From Alteromonadaceae bacterium (lineage in GTDB: Bacteria; Pseudomonadota; Gammaproteobacteria; Enterobacterales; Alteromonadaceae), in the NCBI GenBank assembly GCA_014872785.1, contig WKFJ01000040.1, positions 1-64,000 on the forward strand: a stretch of DNA of 64,000 nt, given 5' to 3'. A program made the translations under genes and the position numbers. This document shows, one piece after another, positions 25,481 through 37,266 of the stretch. The notes under the pieces are model-generated. The model saw only the letters and a list, made by a program, of their open reading frames with translations, searched no databases and was not told the DNA's origin. How positions within the stretch are numbered: position 1 is the first letter of the stretch; every line of letters begins with the position of its first letter.

Positions 25481-27304
25481 GTGAAAAGCTTTTTCAAATG
25501 GTTGGGCATTAGTGTCCTGACAATTATTCTTTTAGCTCTCGCACTCGGCCTACACGAGTGGCATGCTAAAAAGCCGCTATTCTTTAGAGCTTTTTTAGAC
25601 CGAACCTTGATTAAGGTTGCTTTGGATTCCCCAGAAACTTTGACCTCCATTGGTGTTTTGGAAAATATAGGTTTCAAAGGCCATAACGCAGAACTCAACG
25701 ACAGTAGCCTTGAAAAGGGCGATGAAATGTATGCGATGATCGATGAAGTTCGCTCGACCATGCTCGAATACAAAGACGAGGATTTAGACGAAAATCAAAG
25801 GCTCTCAAAAGAAATCGCTATGTATTTGATAGACGCCGGTGTTGAATCTAAGCCGTATCGCTATCACGATTACCCAGTTAACCAACTATTCGGCGTTCAG
25901 AACGGCTATCCTAGCTTTATGGATGCCCAGCACAGAATCACTGAAGGACAGGATGCAGAGCATTACATTTCGCGTTTGAGCGCGGTGAAAGTGAAGTTTG
26001 CACAAATCATGGAAGGACTAAAATTACGAGAAGAAAACGGCATTATTCCGCCGAAATTCGTGATAGACCGAGTACTTGATGAAATGCGGGGATTCGTGGG
26101 AACTGCTCCTGAAGAGAACATTCTTTATACATCTTTCTCCGCAAAACTAGATAAGATCGAGGAGATACCTGAAGCGGACAAGGCACTATTTTTGTCACGA
26201 GTAGCATCTGAAATTTCCGCCTCAGTTTATCCAACGTATCAATCCTACATTGATTACTTTGCTGCTTTGAAAAGTAAAGCGGGAACGGATGATGGTTTCT
26301 GGCGCTTACCAGGTGGTGATATCGCTTATCAGCAACTTCTAAAATTCTTTACTACAACAGGTTACTCAGCAGATAAAATCCATAATATCGGCTTATCTGA
26401 AGTAGATCGAATACAGGAAGAGATCCTCGCGATATTAGAGGGTGAGGGCTACGACATTAGCACTGGTTTCTACGGCGCGATTGAGACCCTAAAAGCCGAT
26501 GAGTCATTTTATTATCCAGACACTGACGAAGGCCGTGAGCAAATTCTCAAAGACTATCAGACGATAATTGATGAAATTGACGAAGGTATTTCAGAAGCTT
26601 TTAACATACGCCCCAACGCTGGCATGGAAGTAAAACGCATTCCGGAGTTTAAAGAGAAAACTGCACCAGGTGCTTATTACCAGCAACCTTCTATGGATGG
26701 ATCCAGACCGGGCGTATTTTTTGCTAATTTATACGATATAAAAGCCACGCCAAAATACGGTATGCGTACTTTAGCTTATCACGAAGGTGTCCCTGGTCAT
26801 CACTTTCAGGTTGCCATTTCTATGGAGCTAGAAGGGTTACCTATCTTTAGGACACTTTCGCCATTTATTGCATATACAGAGGGCTGGGCATTGTACACCG
26901 AACAACTTGCGTGGGAGATGGGCTTTCAAAATGACCCGTTTGACAATATTGGTCGCTTACAAGCAGAGTTGTTTAGAGCGGTTAGGTTAGTGGTTGATAC
27001 AGGTATCCATGCTAAACGCTGGACAAGAGAAGAAGCGATAGAGTATATGCTGGTGAACACAGGTATTGCTGAGTCTGATGTCGTTTCCGAAATTGAGCGC
27101 TATATAGTTATGCCGGGTCAAGCAACGGCGTATAAAGTCGGTATGATGAAGATTTTGGAAGTGCGCGAAAAAGCCAAAACAGCACTAGGAGAAAAATTCA
27201 GCTTACCTGAATTTCATGATGTCGTGCTGAAAAATGGCGCGGTGCCACTGGATATATTAGAGCGGTTAGTTGACCGTTACATCGAAGAAAAACTCGCGGA
27301 ATAA
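25481..27304 (+). CDS. DUF885-family zinc metallopeptidase, membrane-anchored
   Basis: DUF885 proteins are predicted M1/M2-like metallopeptidases with a gluzincin motif. The motif here is LAYHEGVPGHHFQ near residue 432 (HExxH-like HEGVPGH), with the downstream Glu probably in YTEGWALYTEQLAWE. The family signature MDGSRPGVFFANLYD lies upstream. An N-terminal hydrophobic helix (about 8-24) and short basic start point to export or membrane anchoring; no lipobox is seen. It starts with GTG behind AGGAA. At 607 residues it has the usual length. A paralogue lies at 35401-37266, so two DUF885 enzymes bracket the cyanophycin-like genes. Its natural substrate is unknown. Confidence 0.88.
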   Translation: MKSFFKWLGISVLTIILLALALGLHEWHAKKPLFFRAFLDRTLIKVALDSPETLTSIGVLENIGFKGHNAELNDSSLEKGDEMYAMIDEVRSTMLEYKDEDLDENQRLSKEIAMYLIDAGVESKPYRYHDYPVNQLFGVQNGYPSFMDAQHRITEGQDAEHYISRLSAVKVKFAQIMEGLKLREENGIIPPKFVIDRVLDEMRGFVGTAPEENILYTSFSAKLDKIEEIPEADKALFLSRVASEISASVYPTYQSYIDYFAALKSKAGTDDGFWRLPGGDIAYQQLLKFFTTTGYSADKIHNIGLSEVDRIQEEILAILEGEGYDISTGFYGAIETLKADESFYYPDTDEGREQILKDYQTIIDEIDEGISEAFNIRPNAGMEVKRIPEFKEKTAPGAYYQQPSMDGSRPGVFFANLYDIKATPKYGMRTLAYHEGVPGHHFQVAISMELEGLPIFRTLSPFIAYTEGWALYTEQLAWEMGFQNDPFDNIGRLQAELFRAVRLVVDTGIHAKRWTREEAIEYMLVNTGIAESDVVSEIERYIVMPGQATAYKVGMMKILEVREKAKTALGEKFSLPEFHDVVLKNGAVPLDILERLVDRYIEEKLAE

Positions 27305-28863: not shown

Positions 28864-29706
28864 CTAATTCTTTGCGACGATACGGCGACGTTTGGTTGGT
28901 TTGATTTGCGTCCATTTGTTCAAGTCAAATTTTGAGCCATCTACGAGGAAACTCAACGAGACATTGTCCATGTCAATAAGTTCGTCTTCTTTGATGTTGT
29001 GAAAATTGGAGTACTTTAATTTGTCACCATTGAAGGTTACTACGGTGCCTTCACCAAAGACTTCCATTTTATCGTCTGAACCAATGAATGCCGCGGTATC
29101 CTCTGATACACCTATGCCTCGTTTACTGTAACCTGAGGCGAGGAAAGCACAAATTCTGGGAATTCGACCGCGCTCCATAAAGTGAGTGTCGACAGTGATT
29201 CCCGAGGTAATGCCAAAACCCGGTTCAAAAAAGACGGCACCTTTTTGGAAGTCTTTGCCATCGCCTTCGTAGATAAGTGGATCGCTCATGACCATCGCGC
29301 CCGCACTGGTGCCGGCTAAGTGCAAACCAGACAGAAAATGTCGGTCTTTGACGATTTTTAATAGTTCTGTGTGCAGAAACACGTGAGCGAGCTTAACTTG
29401 GTCACCACCGGTAAAGAAAAACATATCCGCTTCTCTGGCTACGTCTAAATAGCGGGAGTCTTCCGTATCTCTTCTTTCCTTGATATCGAGAATGTCAATT
29501 TTATCCACACCTAGTCTGCGGAACGTATCTTGGTATTCTTCACCTAATTCGTAACCGTACATTGAAGCGGTAGGAACCACAGCGATGTGCTTGGCTTTGG
29601 TTTTGTCTACTAGTTTGCGCAATACTCCATTATTGCTGTTTCTGTCCTCTGCTCCTCCAATTAGCGTGAGAGTGCCTTTGTTATTGTGCATTACTGGTAA
29701 TACCAA
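28864..29706 (-). CDS. cphB: Cyanophycinase (peptidase S51 family)
   Basis: Serine exopeptidase that releases beta-Asp-Arg dipeptides from cyanophycin in characterised members. It has 280 residues, with family features in order: LIGGAEDR near 15, VVPTAS near 44, LDIKERR near 74, FFTGGDQVKL near 97, nucleophile serine in LAGTSAGAMV near 131, VDTHFMERGR near 172 and GVSEDTAAF near 200. Where Synechocystis CphB has VDQHF and DEDT, this protein has VDTHF and SEDT, so the substrate may differ. There is no signal peptide, suggesting a cytoplasmic enzyme. It starts with TTG, seven bases after AAGGG; an ATG at 29691 lacks such a site. It follows the CphA-like gene on the same strand after a hairpin. 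Confidence 0.88.
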   Translation of the reverse strand: MVLPVMHNNKGTLTLIGGAEDRNSNNGVLRKLVDKTKAKHIAVVPTASMYGYELGEEYQDTFRRLGVDKIDILDIKERRDTEDSRYLDVAREADMFFFTGGDQVKLAHVFLHTELLKIVKDRHFLSGLHLAGTSAGAMVMSDPLIYEGDGKDFQKGAVFFEPGFGITSGITVDTHFMERGRIPRICAFLASGYSKRGIGVSEDTAAFIGSDDKMEVFGEGTVVTFNGDKLKYSNFHNIKEDELIDMDNVSLSFLVDGSKFDLNKWTQIKPTKRRRIVAKN

Positions 29707-29724
29707 CTATATGCCCTTAATACG

Positions 29725-29757
29725 TAATAAAAGGAGCAAGTACTCACACTTGCTCCT
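29725..29757 (-). terminator. Terminator or attenuator between the CphA-like gene and cyanophycinase
   Basis: A perfect 10-bp stem (AGGAGCAAGT with ACTTGCTCCT, 6-nt loop) is followed on the minus strand by TTTTATTA. It lies after the CphA-like stop and about 20 bp before the cyanophycinase start, so part of the transcription should end here and the degradative gene may be expressed less or separately. Confidence 0.8.
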
Positions 29758-29795
29758 GATTTTTGTTGTAGGTGGTTTTACACCTTTGTTTTTAT

Positions 29796-31748
29796 TTAGT
29801 GTTTACCGAAATGAGATTTAATTTCGTGCAGTACTAGCGAGAAAAACTCATCTTCAAATTCAACCTGCGAGCGTTCTACATCCGCTTCGCCTCGGCGAAT
29901 TTCAACGTCATTACCGTTGCGAATCATTATTGTGGCGTGAGGCTCTACGTCTTCCGCCAAAATCATTTCAATGTCTGTCGGATCTTCGAGAACTAACAAA
30001 TCCGAGCTATTGTAATACATCCCTTCGGTTTCGTAGACATCTATCGGCATTTCGGCTAACAACATTTCAACGCGCGGGTTACGCAACACGTTACGCATAT
30101 TGGCGTTGTAGTCGCGATTAACAGGAAACTCGTGTTTTTTCAGGAACATACCCTCAGAGCATACTCCGGCAGGGTATCGACAAATTTCATGGTGCATGAT
30201 GTAGTCGATTATCCGTTTCATTGCAGGTTTGCTTAATCGATTGAACGTTAGTATAGGTATACGTGCATCTTCGCGTTCATCAAAATAGGTTTCGATAATG
30301 CGCGTCGGTACATCAATTGAGCGTCCATAAGCGGGTTTCAAATGCATGTAAATCCCGGGTGCAGCGTTGATTTCGATAATACCGAAATTTGACCGACGAC
30401 TGCCTTTGGCAGGTACCCAACTATTGGCAATATCATCCGTAATCACATCGAGCGCGAATACCGTTAGCTTAAAATGTTGCGCGATAGCTCTGCTCATGGC
30501 AATAACATCTGGGTGCACAATGTCCGTCACATCTTCGCTGACACCGCCCAATGATAGGTTTGCGACTTTGCGCAAATGAACTTTTTGTCCTTTTTCTAGA
30601 ACCGAGTTTCTATCAAGACCGCTTTCTTGCAGTGTATTGTCCATCACATCATCGGTGAGTATTTTGCCTAGTGGTGATGTCGCAGTATCGGCACGGATTT
30701 CTTTGCCGTTTTCAATATCAATCAATTCGATAATGCTAGATTCACCGTCACCGATAACAAAGGCGGGTTCGCGTTTAACTGATGCAACAAATTCGCCGTC
30801 GACACAAAGAATTCGGTGGTCGTTGCCGGAAATGAAAGTTTCAACAATGATGCTCTGAGGTTCGCCTTCGGGGATGGCTTCCTGTGCATCGGCAAACGCG
30901 ATTTTTAGTTGTTCTTCATTTTCTATGTTTGCGGTGACACCAATGCCTTTGTGACCTACAACCGGCTTACAAACAACCGGATAGCCAATGTCTTCGGCCG
31001 CATCGAGCGCTTCTTCTAATTCGTAAACTACTTCACCCTCAGGCACTGGAAAACCGTATTCCATTAGAAAGGCCTTACAATCGTCTTTACGACAAGTGAA
31101 GTCTGAGTCGACGTGACTATCGCTATCGAAGGTTGTAGCGATACCGCGGATCATGCTCTTGCCATAACCATATTGAAATAGACCCTCGTCCCATAGGTAA
31201 GTGACTGGTATGCCTTTTTTGGCGGCTGCTTTTATCAAGCTGTAAGACGTTGGTCCGCCAAAGACTGAGCGACTAAAGGATTCTTGCAGCGCCGCAAACT
31301 GGCCGTCATAGTCAAAATCGTTGTTGTCAGGGTCGCAGATATACTCGAACCAATCCCACACAAAATAGACAACCTTCCAAGACGTTGTTTTGTGAACCAC
31401 CTGAAACGCGATACGCGCAGCAGAGCTTTCTTCTTTTTCTTTGACTTCCCACTTTTCCATATGCAGGTTCAAATCCAAGCGATTTACCATTGATACTGCG
31501 TGACCAAAGAGCTGCGCATAGGAACTGAATTCGAGTGTAGCCAACTCGGGTAGCTTTTCAGAAACGGCACTGTGCATATCTGAAAGTGGAATCGGTTTGG
31601 GAGACCCAGTAAATGCAAAATCAAACGCCAACGCTTCACATGATAAATCGGGGTTTGGGCCCACATAATGTCGTAGGTTAAACACATCAAAGGCGTCAGA
31701 TTCTTTGGCATTGGTACGAGTCGTTTGCGCTGTCACAGAATCGGTCAT
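29796..31748 (-). CDS. Cyanophycin-synthetase-like ATP-grasp ligase without a Mur-ligase P-loop
   Basis: This resembles the N-terminal and ATP-grasp parts of cyanophycin synthetase CphA. After an N domain (about 20-160) comes GGPTSYSLIKAAAKKGIPV, then the ATP-grasp domain: GYPVVCKPVVGHKGIGVT near 260, VETFISGNDHRILCVDGEF, KREPAFVIGDGESS, and the metal-binding EINAAPGIYMHL near 457. CphA1 then has a full Mur-ligase domain with GTNGKT; here only about 165 residues follow, with no P-loop but a remnant-like VLRNPRVEMLLAEMPIDVYE. The layout recalls truncated CphA2-type enzymes that join ready-made dipeptides. The ATG at 31748 has AAGGA 7 bp upstream; the GTG at 31790 has none. It has 650 residues. 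The polymer it makes is not known. Confidence 0.82.
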   Translation of the reverse strand: MTDSVTAQTTRTNAKESDAFDVFNLRHYVGPNPDLSCEALAFDFAFTGSPKPIPLSDMHSAVSEKLPELATLEFSSYAQLFGHAVSMVNRLDLNLHMEKWEVKEKEESSAARIAFQVVHKTTSWKVVYFVWDWFEYICDPDNNDFDYDGQFAALQESFSRSVFGGPTSYSLIKAAAKKGIPVTYLWDEGLFQYGYGKSMIRGIATTFDSDSHVDSDFTCRKDDCKAFLMEYGFPVPEGEVVYELEEALDAAEDIGYPVVCKPVVGHKGIGVTANIENEEQLKIAFADAQEAIPEGEPQSIIVETFISGNDHRILCVDGEFVASVKREPAFVIGDGESSIIELIDIENGKEIRADTATSPLGKILTDDVMDNTLQESGLDRNSVLEKGQKVHLRKVANLSLGGVSEDVTDIVHPDVIAMSRAIAQHFKLTVFALDVITDDIANSWVPAKGSRRSNFGIIEINAAPGIYMHLKPAYGRSIDVPTRIIETYFDEREDARIPILTFNRLSKPAMKRIIDYIMHHEICRYPAGVCSEGMFLKKHEFPVNRDYNANMRNVLRNPRVEMLLAEMPIDVYETEGMYYNSSDLLVLEDPTDIEMILAEDVEPHATIMIRNGNDVEIRRGEADVERSQVEFEDEFFSLVLHEIKSHFGKH

Positions 31749-32172
31749 GGGGGTGTCCTTAACAGAGTTGAATTCAGTAGCTTGATACACATGTGAAGGC
31801 TCAAGCTAACAAATGTATTAAAGCATAGCAATAGACTGTCTAATGCCAAACTTCAGGTATAAAAATAGACATTCATGATTTATGGGCAATTATGCAAAGA
31901 GATTATCTCTAACGAGCTAACAAGACTTCACAAATCATTTTATGGCATACAAATTCATCAGAGACCATTTGCAATTATTTTCCACTCGCTTATGGTTATT
32001 AGCAGAACCTGTTATCACTTAACATAAAAAATAAACAAAAGATAAATAGGCTCTAGTTGCTGCGTCATAAATTGTTGTCCCCAGGATAGACGAAACAGAG
32101 GTAGCAACAGCCAACTATACTGTCACAAATCGAATCAAGTTAGCGCGCCAAACTAACACCAATGAGGTCAGG
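31749..32172. promoter_or_regulatory. Divergent promoter region between the two ATP-grasp genes
   Basis: This AT-rich spacer of about 420 bp separates the minus-strand CphA-like gene from the plus-strand ATP-grasp gene and must carry both promoters. It contains the perfect 13-nt palindrome AGAGATTATCTCT at 31898-31910, a plausible operator. I could not pick a single convincing -35/-10 pair and see no small gene. Confidence 0.55.
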
Positions 32173-33438
32173 ATGAGTATTGAGCAAGACTTTTCTATTT
32201 TTACCGGGCAATCGTTTTCGGAACTCTTTAAAAACGATATTCAAGATGCAAAGTACGGCTATTTTGTATCTTATCCGAGTACAGCTGGGTGGAGTCATTA
32301 TCCCAACACGCAAAAATATCTAATTCAGGACGGTAACTCCGAAGAGCGCAAGGTCGCGTACAACAAAACGGCTCAAATGGAGCCATGGCGCGTCACCTCA
32401 GTGATGGGAGATGATATCCCGACAATTCTGATGGAAAAGCCGTCTGATGCTTTACTGAACTATTGGCGCGAACACTTTGGTCATAAGTACGACAATCTAG
32501 ATATTTATCCGCACCAAAGCGTGTTTGATGAACTCAATCAATCTGACAAGTACGACAAGATCCTCACCCTATTCCCATTTGACCATCTCGCACCAGAAAA
32601 GCACGCGGTGAACCCTGATGAACACTACCGACTATTGAGCAAAGTCACACTTGCCGAAATGGGAGTGCACTACCCTAACTTTACTGCTTACGACTTGCAT
32701 GAAGTCAATATTGAAGATGTAAAAACCCCAGATGAATTTCCATTTTTGGTGAAGGTGTCGCATGGCTTGGCGGGTGAAGGTACTTACATTATTCGCAACA
32801 AAGAAGACTTGGATTTTTGCGCCATTGATATCCGTCAATATTTGAAGATGGGACTCGTGCGCACAGTACTGGTTTCGGAATTTGTATTAAACGAGGTGGG
32901 TAACTATTGCGTTCAGTTTTACGTTGATAAGCAAGGCAAAGCAACCTTGCTTGGCGCTACTAACCAAATGGTAACTGAAGACGGTGAAATGATTGGTGGC
33001 GTGATCCGTTACAGCGACACCATGGATAAGTTTCACCACAAAATCGCTGTGCTCAGTCGATTTTTACACAAGCATGGCTATTTTGGCGTTGTCGGAGTAG
33101 ACGTATTAGAAAATATGGACGGTGAAATGTTTGTCATTGATGCCAATATTCGCGTCAATGGATCTACTCCCTTGTGTGTGCTTAGGCATAACCTGAAACA
33201 AGAAAAGAAGGAATATGCTAAGTTCTCCACGGGGTACACCATCGACTGTACAATCGATGAAGCGATGGTGCGGCTGCACAGAGATCTTGAACACAAAGAC
33301 TTTGTTATTGTGTCTGCAAATGAGTTTATAGAAGACCGAAAAATTAAAACACAGTTTTATGGTATTGTGGCTGGTGAAACGCTAGATCAAATGTTTGCTA
33401 TTGAAAACCGTTTGCGCATGTTAGGCGTACACGGCTAG
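32173..33438 (+). CDS. Uncharacterised ATP-grasp ligase, possible dipeptide ligase
   Basis: A 421-residue protein with an ATP-grasp fold: the phosphate-binding loop KVSHGLAGEGTYII near residue 194, a lid or hinge stretch VSEFVLNEVGNYCVQFYVD, and the metal-binding tail FVIDANIRVNGSTPL near 320 (Asp-x-Asn). The N-terminal 150 residues have no motif I recognise. ATP-grasp enzymes join a carboxylate to an amine via an acyl phosphate. Its place opposite the CphA-like enzyme suggests it could make a dipeptide or capped monomer for polymerisation (inference). GAGGTCAGG precedes the ATG. A terminator follows, so M20 expression may be separate. Confidence 0.8.
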   Translation: MSIEQDFSIFTGQSFSELFKNDIQDAKYGYFVSYPSTAGWSHYPNTQKYLIQDGNSEERKVAYNKTAQMEPWRVTSVMGDDIPTILMEKPSDALLNYWREHFGHKYDNLDIYPHQSVFDELNQSDKYDKILTLFPFDHLAPEKHAVNPDEHYRLLSKVTLAEMGVHYPNFTAYDLHEVNIEDVKTPDEFPFLVKVSHGLAGEGTYIIRNKEDLDFCAIDIRQYLKMGLVRTVLVSEFVLNEVGNYCVQFYVDKQGKATLLGATNQMVTEDGEMIGGVIRYSDTMDKFHHKIAVLSRFLHKHGYFGVVGVDVLENMDGEMFVIDANIRVNGSTPLCVLRHNLKQEKKEYAKFSTGYTIDCTIDEAMVRLHRDLEHKDFVIVSANEFIEDRKIKTQFYGIVAGETLDQMFAIENRLRMLGVHG

Positions 33439-33464
33439 TTACCAAAAAAACGAACGAAGGAAGA

Positions 33465-33490
33465 GGGGGACGTTTTGTCCCCTTTTATTT
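33465..33490 (+). terminator. Rho-independent terminator after the ATP-grasp gene
   Basis: GGGGAC-GTTTT-GTCCCC is followed by TTTTATTT. It lies 26 bp before the M20 hydrolase gene, so it either ends the transcript or attenuates read-through. Confidence 0.85.
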
Positions 33491-33515
33491 ATCGCGAACC
33501 TAAGAGTATATAAAA

Positions 33516-34796
33516 ATGAAAAGAATACTATTGACGGCTCTTGCAACCCTGCCCTTTTGGGCCTGTGCCAGTGTTGATGAAATGGCTGATAAAATTGAGC
33601 CCAAAGTTATCGAATGGCGTCATCATCTACATCAGCATCCTGAGCTCTCCAACCGAGAAGTAGAAACGGCTAAATATGTCGCCGCTTATATGAAAGAATT
33701 GGGTTTTGAAGTGCAAACTGGTGTTGCCCTTACTGGGGTAGTGGCTGTTTTAGACAGCGGCAAACCAGGACCAACAGTGGCGCTACGGGCCGACATGGAC
33801 GGGCTGCCAGTACTTGAAGACAATGATTTACCGTGGAAGTCGACTGCTCGTGGTGTCTTCAATGGACAAGATGTGCCTGTAATGCATGCCTGTGGTCACG
33901 ACACACACGTAGCCATGTTGATGGGGGCGGCAGCTATCTTAGCCGACATGAAAGACCAGCTTCGAGGCCAGGTGAAATTCATCTTTCAGCCTGCTGAAGA
34001 AGGCGCGCCAGAGGGAGAAGTAGGTGGCGCTGAGATTATGGTGATGGAAGATGTACTAAAAGATCCCGATGTCGATGTGATCTTTGGTTTGCACATCTGG
34101 TCCAAATTGGATGTTGGTACTATCGCTTATCGTGAAGGCGGCATTATGGCCGCGGTTGATCCGTTCAAGCTGGTAGTAAAGGGTAAGCAAGCGCACGGCG
34201 CTTATCCTTGGTTAAGTGTTGACCCTATCGTAACTTCTGCCCAAATTATTATGGGCTTACAGACTATTGTCAGTCGCGAAATTGAGTTGGTGGAAGATGG
34301 CGCCGTGGTTACCGTTGGCTCGATTCACGGCGGCGTGCGCTCAAACATCATTCCTGAAGAAGTTGAAATCGTAGGCACCATACGCACGCTCAATGACAAG
34401 GCGCGCGACCATATGTACGAAGCGATTCCACGCAAAGTGAAAGCTATTGCTGAGAGCATGGGAGCCGAGGTAGAGATTACATTGCCACTGGATTACAACT
34501 ATCCAGTGACCTACAACGACCCGGAATTAATGCGTGAAATGCTTGATACCGTTATTCGTACTGCCGGCAAAGATAACGTCGTGAATCGCAAACCTACAAC
34601 GGGTGCTGAAGATTTTTCTTTCTTCCAAAAAGAAGTACCTGGCTTGTATTTTTTCGTTGGCGGTAAGCCGTTAGATGTAAAAGCTGAAGATGCACCTGCG
34701 CATCACACCCCGTCTTTCTTTGTCCACGACGACGGTATGAAAACAGGCGTGAAGTTACTTACCAATCTCACATTGGACTACATGGCGAAAAACTAA
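33516..34796 (+). CDS. Exported M20-family amidohydrolase
   Basis: An M20D-type peptidase or N-acyl-amino-acid amidohydrolase with 426 residues. WRHHLHQHPELSNREVETA near 35 is the family signature. Metal ligands are in MHACGHDTHVAMLMG near 125, PAEEGAPEGE near 160 (catalytic and ligand Glu), FGLHIW near 190 and a C-terminal HHTPSF. The N-terminus MKRILLTALATLPFWACA looks like a cleaved signal peptide, so it probably acts in the periplasm. These enzymes cut amide bonds of acylated amino acids or dipeptides, which fits a role with isopeptide products, but the substrate cannot be read from sequence. Confidence 0.85.
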   Translation: MKRILLTALATLPFWACASVDEMADKIEPKVIEWRHHLHQHPELSNREVETAKYVAAYMKELGFEVQTGVALTGVVAVLDSGKPGPTVALRADMDGLPVLEDNDLPWKSTARGVFNGQDVPVMHACGHDTHVAMLMGAAAILADMKDQLRGQVKFIFQPAEEGAPEGEVGGAEIMVMEDVLKDPDVDVIFGLHIWSKLDVGTIAYREGGIMAAVDPFKLVVKGKQAHGAYPWLSVDPIVTSAQIIMGLQTIVSREIELVEDGAVVTVGSIHGGVRSNIIPEEVEIVGTIRTLNDKARDHMYEAIPRKVKAIAESMGAEVEITLPLDYNYPVTYNDPELMREMLDTVIRTAGKDNVVNRKPTTGAEDFSFFQKEVPGLYFFVGGKPLDVKAEDAPAHHTPSFFVHDDGMKTGVKLLTNLTLDYMAKN

Positions 34797-35400: not shown

Positions 35401-37266
35401 ATGTTGAATAAGTCGTTAGCGTCGATTGCGTTGTCTACCCTATTAATTGCATGTGGCGGAGGTGGTGGCAGTAGTAATAGTAATGTTACGCCTGCGCCAA
35501 CTACACCCTCTACTCCTGCTCCGGCCCCTACAACACCCGTTCTATCAATGGCTGATCAGGATGTAGTATCTGCGTTTGCTGACGATTTATCGACAATGGA
35601 TTTGCAAGACATTATTGATGACGCAGTTATCAAAATTGAATTACGCGATCCTGAAAATTTAGTTGCGTTGACGCTGGATGATGATTACGGGTTGACTACT
35701 GTTGGGCTAACCGATATTTCATATTCGTATGAACTGACAACACTTGCCATGTGGCAAGCTGTATATGACCGATTGCAACAACTTGATACCAGTGAATATA
35801 CACAATCACAGCAGCTCAATTTTGACGTCTTAAGTTGGCTGGCGTTGGAGCAAGCCGAACGGACTGACTTCATTTATTTTGATTATCAGGCGACTTACTT
35901 TCTCACTAGCGTGCCAAGACAAACTCAACGTTTCTTTTCAGATTTACACCCACTTGAAACGGCGCAAGATGCACAAAACTACCTGGCTCGTTTAAATCTA
36001 GTTTCTGCGAAGATAGGGCAACTTATTGCAAACCTGCAGGAAGCGGAAAGCCAAGGGATAATAGAACCGCAGATTACAATGCAGTTTTCGATTGATTTTC
36101 ATCAACGTATCTTGACTGATGGCATTCAAAGCAATCCGTATTTCAGTAGGTTTAATGAACAAATAGATTCGATAAGCGATCTTACTAATGAACAAAAAGC
36201 AGCACATCGACAAACCGCTCAAGACATTGTTGAACAAAAGATAAATCCCGCTTATCAACAGTTGATTAATTTACTAAATGATCAAATCACCAGAGCACCT
36301 GCCCAAATTGGTGTGGGACAGTTCGAGCGAGGTGATGAGTACTACATGCAAAGACTGGGTTTTCATACGACTACAGACATGACACCACAGCAAATACACG
36401 ATTTGGGCTTACAGGAAGTGGCTCGGATCCAAGAAGAGCTCAATGAGAAATTTGCCAGTTTAGGATACCCACAGAACGAAACTTTAGAACAGCACTTCAA
36501 TCGAGTAGCAAGCGACAGTGGGTTTGTCCCTGCCGCAGAAGTTGTTCCTACATATGAAGCGTTAATTGAAGATGCCGAATCACGAATGAGCGATTTATTT
36601 TCTCGCTTCCCTGTCGCTGAAGTCGCTGTCATAGGTGGAGAGTTCGGAGGTTTTTATATTCGAGCGGCTCTGGATGGCAGTCGTCCAGGCGCCTTTTATG
36701 CGTCTAATATTAGTGACGAACCATACTTTACAATGCCTACTTTGGCGTATCACGAGGCGATGCCCGGTCATCATATGCAAATAGCCTTGGCACAAGAAAC
36801 TCAGTTGCCTGACTTTAGGCGTAACTTAAGTGCAACGGGTTACATAGAAGGTTGGGGTCTGTATGCGGAGTATTTGGCTGGTGAATATGGTTGGTATGAA
36901 AATGACATATACGGTGATATCGGTAGGCTAAACTTTGAAATACTGCGCGCAGCAAGACTCGTTGTTGATACCGGTATTCACGCTTTCGGATGGAGTTTTC
37001 AAGAAGCGAGTGAATATTTTCAGCAAAATGTAGGGGTATCGATTGGCTCGGCACAGTCGAATATTGCTCGTTACAGCATTTATACTGGCCAGGCGACGGC
37101 CTACATGATTGGCATGTTGAAGCTGATTGAACTTAGAGAATTGATGCGTGATGCCCAAGGGGCGGAATTTGATATCAAACGGTTCCATGACTTGGTTCTG
37201 GATAATGGTGCGATGCCGTTGTCTTTATTGGAAACAAACGTCCAGCTTGCCATTGGCAGTGACTAA
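35401..37266 (+). CDS. DUF885-family metallopeptidase, lipoprotein
   Basis: Second DUF885 protein in this region, 621 residues. The signal MLNKSLASIALSTLLIACGGGG is a clear lipobox with the cysteine at 18, followed by a Gly/Ser and Pro/Thr-rich linker (about 19-50). The metal motif is LAYHEAMPGHHMQ near residue 449, with the probable third ligand in YIEGWGLYAEYLAGEYG. LDGSRPGAFYAS corresponds to the other copy's signature. It differs widely from the copy at 25481 outside these motifs, so it is not a recent duplication. Its lipid anchor suggests action in the periplasm or at the outer membrane. Confidence 0.88.
   Translation: MLNKSLASIALSTLLIACGGGGGSSNSNVTPAPTTPSTPAPAPTTPVLSMADQDVVSAFADDLSTMDLQDIIDDAVIKIELRDPENLVALTLDDDYGLTTVGLTDISYSYELTTLAMWQAVYDRLQQLDTSEYTQSQQLNFDVLSWLALEQAERTDFIYFDYQATYFLTSVPRQTQRFFSDLHPLETAQDAQNYLARLNLVSAKIGQLIANLQEAESQGIIEPQITMQFSIDFHQRILTDGIQSNPYFSRFNEQIDSISDLTNEQKAAHRQTAQDIVEQKINPAYQQLINLLNDQITRAPAQIGVGQFERGDEYYMQRLGFHTTTDMTPQQIHDLGLQEVARIQEELNEKFASLGYPQNETLEQHFNRVASDSGFVPAAEVVPTYEALIEDAESRMSDLFSRFPVAEVAVIGGEFGGFYIRAALDGSRPGAFYASNISDEPYFTMPTLAYHEAMPGHHMQIALAQETQLPDFRRNLSATGYIEGWGLYAEYLAGEYGWYENDIYGDIGRLNFEILRAARLVVDTGIHAFGWSFQEASEYFQQNVGVSIGSAQSNIARYSIYTGQATAYMIGMLKLIELRELMRDAQGAEFDIKRFHDLVLDNGAMPLSLLETNVQLAIGSD

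Follow-up and report, generated by a model that had tools for sequence, protein, structure and literature searches.

A 64,000-nucleotide stretch of an Alteromonadaceae bacterium genome (GenBank assembly GCA_014872785.1, contig WKFJ01000040.1, positions 1 to 64,000; referred to here as the window) carries a second cyanophycin-type system, second because a canonical cphB-cphA1 cluster lies on another contig of the same genome. The locus holds a second cyanophycinase gene (family S51; 28864..29706, minus strand), situated directly 3' of the gene for a CphA2-type dipeptide polymerase of 650 amino acids (29796..31748, minus strand), and, divergent from these two, the genes for an ATP-grasp ligase of 421 amino acids (32173..33438, plus strand) and an exported M20 amidohydrolase (33516..34796, plus strand). 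We propose, with a probability of about one-half, that the ligase makes a beta-aspartyl dipeptide, that CphA2 polymerises this dipeptide and that the cyanophycinase releases it again. An original prediction, made from the letters of the DNA, had placed these four families here and interpreted them as a pathway for a cyanophycin-like isopeptide. The open reading frames are present, profile scores support each family call, and the pathway interpretation is partly supported, the separate canonical cluster of the genome being added here.

In the first step of the proposed route, the ATP-grasp enzyme would join the beta-carboxylate of L-aspartate to a second amino acid, yielding a beta-aspartyl dipeptide. 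CphA2, to judge from its family, would then activate the alpha-carboxylate at the chain end with ATP and add whole dipeptides, so that no Mur-ligase domain would be needed. The cyanophycinase encoded beside cphA2 would cut the backbone back to dipeptides, as expected of its family, and the general isoaspartyl dipeptidases of the genome would hydrolyse them. The same ligase family may serve CphA2 likewise in cyanobacteria, often beside a gene of the isoaspartyl dipeptidase type. CphA2 could then draw on freshly synthesised dipeptide as well as on that reclaimed from existing cyanophycin.

Its sequence marks the CphA-like enzyme as a CphA2, a type unusual outside cyanobacteria, and as a member of this family it would polymerise beta-Asp-Arg dipeptides. 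It scores 364.5 and 330.5 bits against two cyanophycin-synthetase models, under the cut-offs of 877 and 850, with the match covering the first part only; the lower score is that for the CphA1 equivalog TIGR02068, from which the protein is therefore excluded. In the PDB it matches 8fxh over residues 21-657 (E 6.4e-210) and 7ta5 over residues 30-642 (E 6.7e-181). We take these entries to be the CphA2 proteins of Stanieria and Gloeothece citriformis, a point on which the molecule names in the table are silent. The reading frame extends to an in-frame upstream start at 31790, the likely start being 31748. The original call of a cyanophycin-synthetase relative holds and is narrowed to the CphA2 kind; identification as a GshAB-type or N-acetylglutaminylglutamine synthetase was rejected, with scores far under the cut-offs.

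Compared with the top match of each of 30 cyanobacterial genomes, the window CphA2 is 46–52% identical, and it resembles the cyanobacterial enzymes over nearly its full length (about 50% identity), in the catalytic residues of the G domain and in what is missing. The Mur P-loop GTNGKTT and the CphA1 primer motif HxxEH are both absent from it, a criterion for CphA2 drawn from parts of PMC9427784 and PMC9262961; the genome's own CphA1 has both motifs, without the exact published Cx19 spacing before HxxEH. The equivalents of R309, R323, N394, S396, D431, E450 and K261 of TeCphA1, whose catalytic roles are taken from a portion of PMC9427784, are kept. R458 is lost, as it is in 32 cyanobacterial CphA2 rows, nearly all of which come from genomes chosen for having the ATP-grasp ligase. 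At the E215, K220 and H267 sites, where the scripted numbering or alignment is shifted, inspection by eye indicates an acidic residue and a lysine at the first two in the CphA2 rows, and at the third a GHKG loop in all CphA2 rows but one, the second copy of genome G354, which has GHEG. The window enzyme differs from its cyanobacterial counterparts in its non-cyanobacterial host, in three charge-changed sites and in having a partner ligase adjoining it.

The 421-amino-acid enzyme is, according to its predicted structure, a relative of an aspartate-using ligase, with an LdmS-like fold, and not an LdmS. It contains an ATP-grasp domain (PF02655, 26.9 bits, cut-off 23.2), and its best NCBIfam match is the LdmS model NF047900. 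The original prediction had named assignment to a family with an unrelated known substrate as telling against it; no such assignment was found, the score of 83.7 bits against the equivalog cut-off of 475 placing the enzyme outside LdmS. An AlphaFold2 model built from 36 sequences (pLDDT 88) has 7r8q as its nearest structure (Z 34.3, root-mean-square deviation 2.9, 367 residues aligned), with 7r8p at Z 32.3; the next other protein is 3wvq (Z 25.6, deviation 3.7, 351 aligned). Foldseek also ranks 7r8q and 7r8p first. The titles of these two entries name SAOUHSC_02373 of S. aureus, which we take to be LdmS, the L-aspartate-L-methionine ligase. Both enzymes have the motifs NYCVQF and NGST, whereas identity is only 18–20%, and the window ligase probably uses another amine and forms a beta rather than an alpha linkage. 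The invariant columns of its family include K157, K194, an SHGLxGEGT loop, N325 and RxNGST.

The ATP-grasp enzyme may form a beta-aspartyl peptide bond; we propose it as a beta-aspartyl dipeptide synthetase because of its adjacency to dipeptidase genes and its co-occurrence with CphA2. Among the matches listed from the open-licence literature (titles and abstract openings), an ATP-grasp partner of CphA2 is undescribed. An enzyme that tailors the polymer made by CphA2, adding an aspartyl or other residue to it, would also co-occur with CphA2. The nearest structural relative is a ligase of free amino acids, and no hint of polymer binding was noticed in the ATP-grasp sequence, although no dedicated search was made; we regard tailoring as very improbable.

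Of 244 cyanobacterial genomes drawn, the ligase is found in 13 (E<=1e-40) and CphA2 in 30 (E<1e-150), and all 13 fall within the 30 (hypergeometric P 9.5e-14, or 7.7e-13 if the centre genome G206 is left out; 4.6e-8 among the 93 genomes with any CphA match), these P values ignoring shared ancestry. An alignment-based scan of GTDB r220, with a single genome for each species, gave 96 relatives, of which the best 80 loci were kept (one from SAR324 and 79 from cyanobacteria, by record titles; three organisms give two loci each), whereas a contig scan with the single ATP-grasp protein as query gave no relative. Forty-nine genomes, behind 50 of the 80 loci, were searched for CphA2, and all 49 have it (best E<=1e-104), although in G218 and G241 it comes as two pieces and in SAR324 it is at 38% identity; all but SAR324 also have a CphA1-type match (48/49). 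Co-occurrence thus extends beyond this strain, the lack of which the original prediction had named as a point against itself, and a link between the CphA-like enzyme and the ATP-grasp ligase is supported, the M20 enzyme dropping out as not specific. A chance neighbourhood with no joint function would fit the absence of the ATP-grasp gene from the same place in the congener G033; set against P values of about 1e-13, or 5e-8 within CphA-bearing genomes (phylogeny ignored), such an explanation is hardly credible.

Physical linkage is less regular. The ligase gene and cphA2 are adjacent and divergent in G000 (the genome of the window) and in the congener G075, and in G354 the ligase gene follows two tandem copies of cphA2 and is co-directional with them. 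A distance of about 6 kb, with an intervening cyanophycinase gene, separates the ligase gene from cphA2 in L072 and L085, which are sister loci of Nostoc. The original expectation of co-occurrence within 10 kb is borne out only in 2/80 fetched loci, in G075 and in G354, and such proximity is rare in cyanobacteria (2/80 loci and one other genome). A metagenome-assembled genome of SAR324 (G198) has the ligase together with a cyanophycinase-CphA2 pair and no CphA1 match. The two tandem copies of G354 (L169, 7961-11911) are 48% and 43% identical to the CphA2 of the window, and a YfcC/DcuC-like transporter gene, so named from its sequence, is divergent from them. In G198, the third gene after the cyanophycinase and cphA2 genes (contig C61; L170, 10417-11949) is CphA/Mur-like, also by sequence, with an apparently degenerate P-loop, TGSVGVAT.

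In 46/80 loci, the ligase gene has an IaaA-type gene on its own strand at a distance of at most 1 kb, upstream or downstream; two of the 46 are partial matches (L068 and L114), and in eight loci one flank is shorter than 1.3 kb. This gene name is taken from the annotation of a Gloeothece plasmid (isoaspartyl peptidase/L-asparaginase), and clustering of open reading frames in a 5-kb frame gave an IaaA-type neighbour in 44/80 loci, plus the Gloeothece plasmid. IaaA cleaves beta-aspartyl dipeptides, according to a section of PMC10206079, which suggests a beta-aspartyl product for the ligase. On the tree, the adjacency requires 15 changes (6 of them forced by starred branches), versus 27.7 in shuffles. 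The ligase might also make a soluble beta-aspartyl dipeptide that is used as such (as a transport form, stress solute or nitrogen store), sharing only the dipeptidase with cyanophycin metabolism. The neighbour counts lean this way, with an isoaspartyl-dipeptidase-type gene in 46/80 loci versus cphA2 in the fetched flank of 2/80, as do four Calothrix loci (L116, L118, L121 and L122) in which an aspartoacylase-type gene, named from its sequence, adjoins the ligase gene on the opposite strand instead of an IaaA gene. A soluble product leaves unexplained both the co-occurrence with CphA2 and the place beside cphA2 in the genus of the window, and we consider it distinctly unlikely.

Several observations weigh against the proposed route, in addition to the shared ancestry that the P values ignore. 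The adjacency to IaaA-type genes is recurrent but clustered by descent, the loci not being independent, and enzymes of this type are also annotated as asparaginases. In 78/80 ligase loci, cphA2 is not in the fetched flank (some flanks being short), and in G198 the two genes are on separate contigs. The nearest named enzyme, LdmS, presumably makes an alpha-dipeptide. The ligase is missing from 17 of the 30 cyanobacteria with CphA2, and a CphA1-type match is present in every one of the 30; the ligase is therefore an extra that CphA2 does not require. Since breakdown of the CphA1 product would already supply beta-Asp-Arg, a ligase that makes the dipeptide de novo would in part duplicate an existing source. 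Lastly, in G033, which has the M20, CphA2 and cyanophycinase genes, there is no ATP-grasp match and no CphA1 match (each at E<=1e-20), and its CphA2 would have to work without the ligase or be decaying.

Some of these points favour a salvage role, in which CphA2 only re-polymerises beta-Asp-Arg from the cyanophycin of CphA1 and the aspartyl dipeptide made by the ATP-grasp enzyme has nothing to do with it. The part of PMC9262961 drawn on here describes CphA2s as specialised enzymes of cyanobacteria, which make polymer from dipeptides salvaged out of degraded cyanophycin. Both G000 and G075 have CphA1, and every CphA2 cyanobacterium of the draw has a CphA1-type match; the catalytic sites of CphA2 are kept, and 17/30 genomes manage without the ligase. 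Salvage does not account for an ATP-grasp enzyme found only in CphA2 genomes (13/13 in the draw), for the linkage of the ligase gene to cphA2 in three lineages, or for G033 and the SAR324 genome, which have CphA2 without a CphA1 match. We judge it rather unlikely and retain the route through newly made dipeptide.

The history of the locus in its genus bears on G033. The four-gene set is conserved in G075, and in G033 it lacks the ATP-grasp gene. G033 and G075 are mutually closest (CphA2 91%, M20 87%), which makes loss of the ligase in G033 the most likely course. Of the three cyanophycinases, that of G033 has diverged furthest (76% identical to that of G000, versus 84% for G075), which fits relaxed constraint without showing it. 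CphA2 at >=83% identity is restricted to 3/196 related genomes (G000, G033 and G075); the other 29 of these 196 with a CphA match are at 28–38%, mostly with frames of CphA1 length. The ligase is found in 2/3 genomes of the genus (G000 and G075), in 2/196 genomes of the wider family (E<=1e-20), in 1/398 of a Pseudomonadota draw, namely its own genome (E<=1e-25), and in 1/52 of the SAR324 phylum (E<=1e-40). This rarity among relatives suggests that the gene was acquired by transfer. In a quick tree, the ligases of the window and G075 group with that of SAR324 (SH-aLRT 100), the latter being a flagged long branch, so that this grouping is not firm. A plasmid copy in Kovacikia minuta (L009, 11968-13062) is without the C-terminal part, adjoins a partial IaaA match and is probably decaying.

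The canonical cluster lies on contig C37 and consists of an IadA-like gene (named from its sequence), then cphB (269.3 bits) and a full cphA1 (1147.8 bits); C37 also carries a second CphA-type gene that matches model positions 475-855 only. A single IaaA-family gene (PF01112) is found on contig C60. The genome thus has the known CphA1-CphB-isoaspartyl dipeptidase set, from which the window locus differs in its proposed separate dipeptide ligase: CphA1 builds the polymer from free Asp and Arg in two ATP-dependent reactions, as stated in a passage of PMC10206079, and has no such ligase. A third cyanophycinase-like stretch, sub-threshold at 78.7 bits, lies inside a 596-codon frame on C60 (50649-51206; L022).

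The cyanophycinase of the window belongs to TIGR02069 (193.5 bits, cut-off 126.6). Like CphB and CphE, it has the GTSAG serine site, and alignments inspected by eye indicate that the pocket residues Gln101, Asp172, Arg178, Arg180 and Arg183 are kept together with Ser132 (residue roles from an excerpt of PMC3235067), with Gln173 replaced by Thr. This replacement was rejected as a mark of a new substrate, since the CphE of P. alcaligenes also has Thr. Overall, the protein is distant from its relatives, sharing only 33% identity with the CphB of the same genome and 47% with the cyanophycinase of SAR324 G198, where the gene likewise precedes cphA2.

The three charge-changed sites of CphA2 are conserved in >=31/32 cyanobacterial CphA2s and altered in all three congeners. 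On the TeCphA1 scale they are Glu->Lys at about 322, Arg->Glu at 324 and Ile->Glu at 402 (window residues 323, 325 and 403 by script numbering); two flank R323 and the third sits in the stretch after S396. They were picked for place and charge from 41 positions that passed the conservation filter. CphA1 likewise has Lys at the site near 322, and the CphA2 of SAR324 has Glu, Ile and Ile at the three sites. The presence of a canonical set in the same genome, the distance of the cyanophycinase from the genome's own CphB and these charge changes suggest a polymer other than cyanophycin. The mapped catalytic residues of CphA2 and the cyanophycinase pocket are kept, which makes cyanophycin itself, synthesised by a new route, no less probable. 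A more far-reaching version is tentative and rather unlikely: the ATP-grasp enzymes would be a family devoted to beta-aspartyl dipeptide synthesis and, in this genus, would feed a CphA2 whose charges are altered close to the substrate site, to make a second, non-arginine cyanophycin-like polymer kept apart from true cyanophycin by its own polymerase and cyanophycinase.

Existing accounts give CphA2 a recycling role, for which CphA1 must first have made cyanophycin. If our proposal is true, CphA2 would form part of a modular route of two enzymes, in which a small soluble ligase chooses the side-chain amino acid. This could explain why CphA2 is kept beside CphA1 in some cyanobacteria, would carry the system outside that phylum and would offer a direct handle for polymers with other side chains.

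The fourth gene of the locus encodes an M20 amidohydrolase (TIGR01891, 343.9 bits, cut-off 153.75) with a signal-peptide-like N-terminus. Homologues, sought with the mature part as query, are present in 127/196 related genomes (E<=1e-120), versus 3/196 for CphA2, and a hand count of the table gives 55 genomes outside the genus with a homologue at >=70% identity. The enzyme was consequently ruled out as a specific pathway member, being family-wide in its distribution; it is a common family enzyme that adjoins the other genes and may have a side role. Of the two dedicated hydrolases originally envisaged, the cyanophycinase remains.

Upstream of cphA2, on its strand, a 13-base block, TATTGCTATGCTT (31821..31833, minus strand), occurs once in the window and is identical in 3/3 congeneric genomes (G000, G033 and G075). 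It resembles an extended -10 element and is a putative promoter element. A profile scan of the window revealed two DUF885 proteins that bracket the locus (25481-27304 and 35401-37266), and G075 has a lookalike, recognised by eye, close to the same island (L026, 6185-8062).

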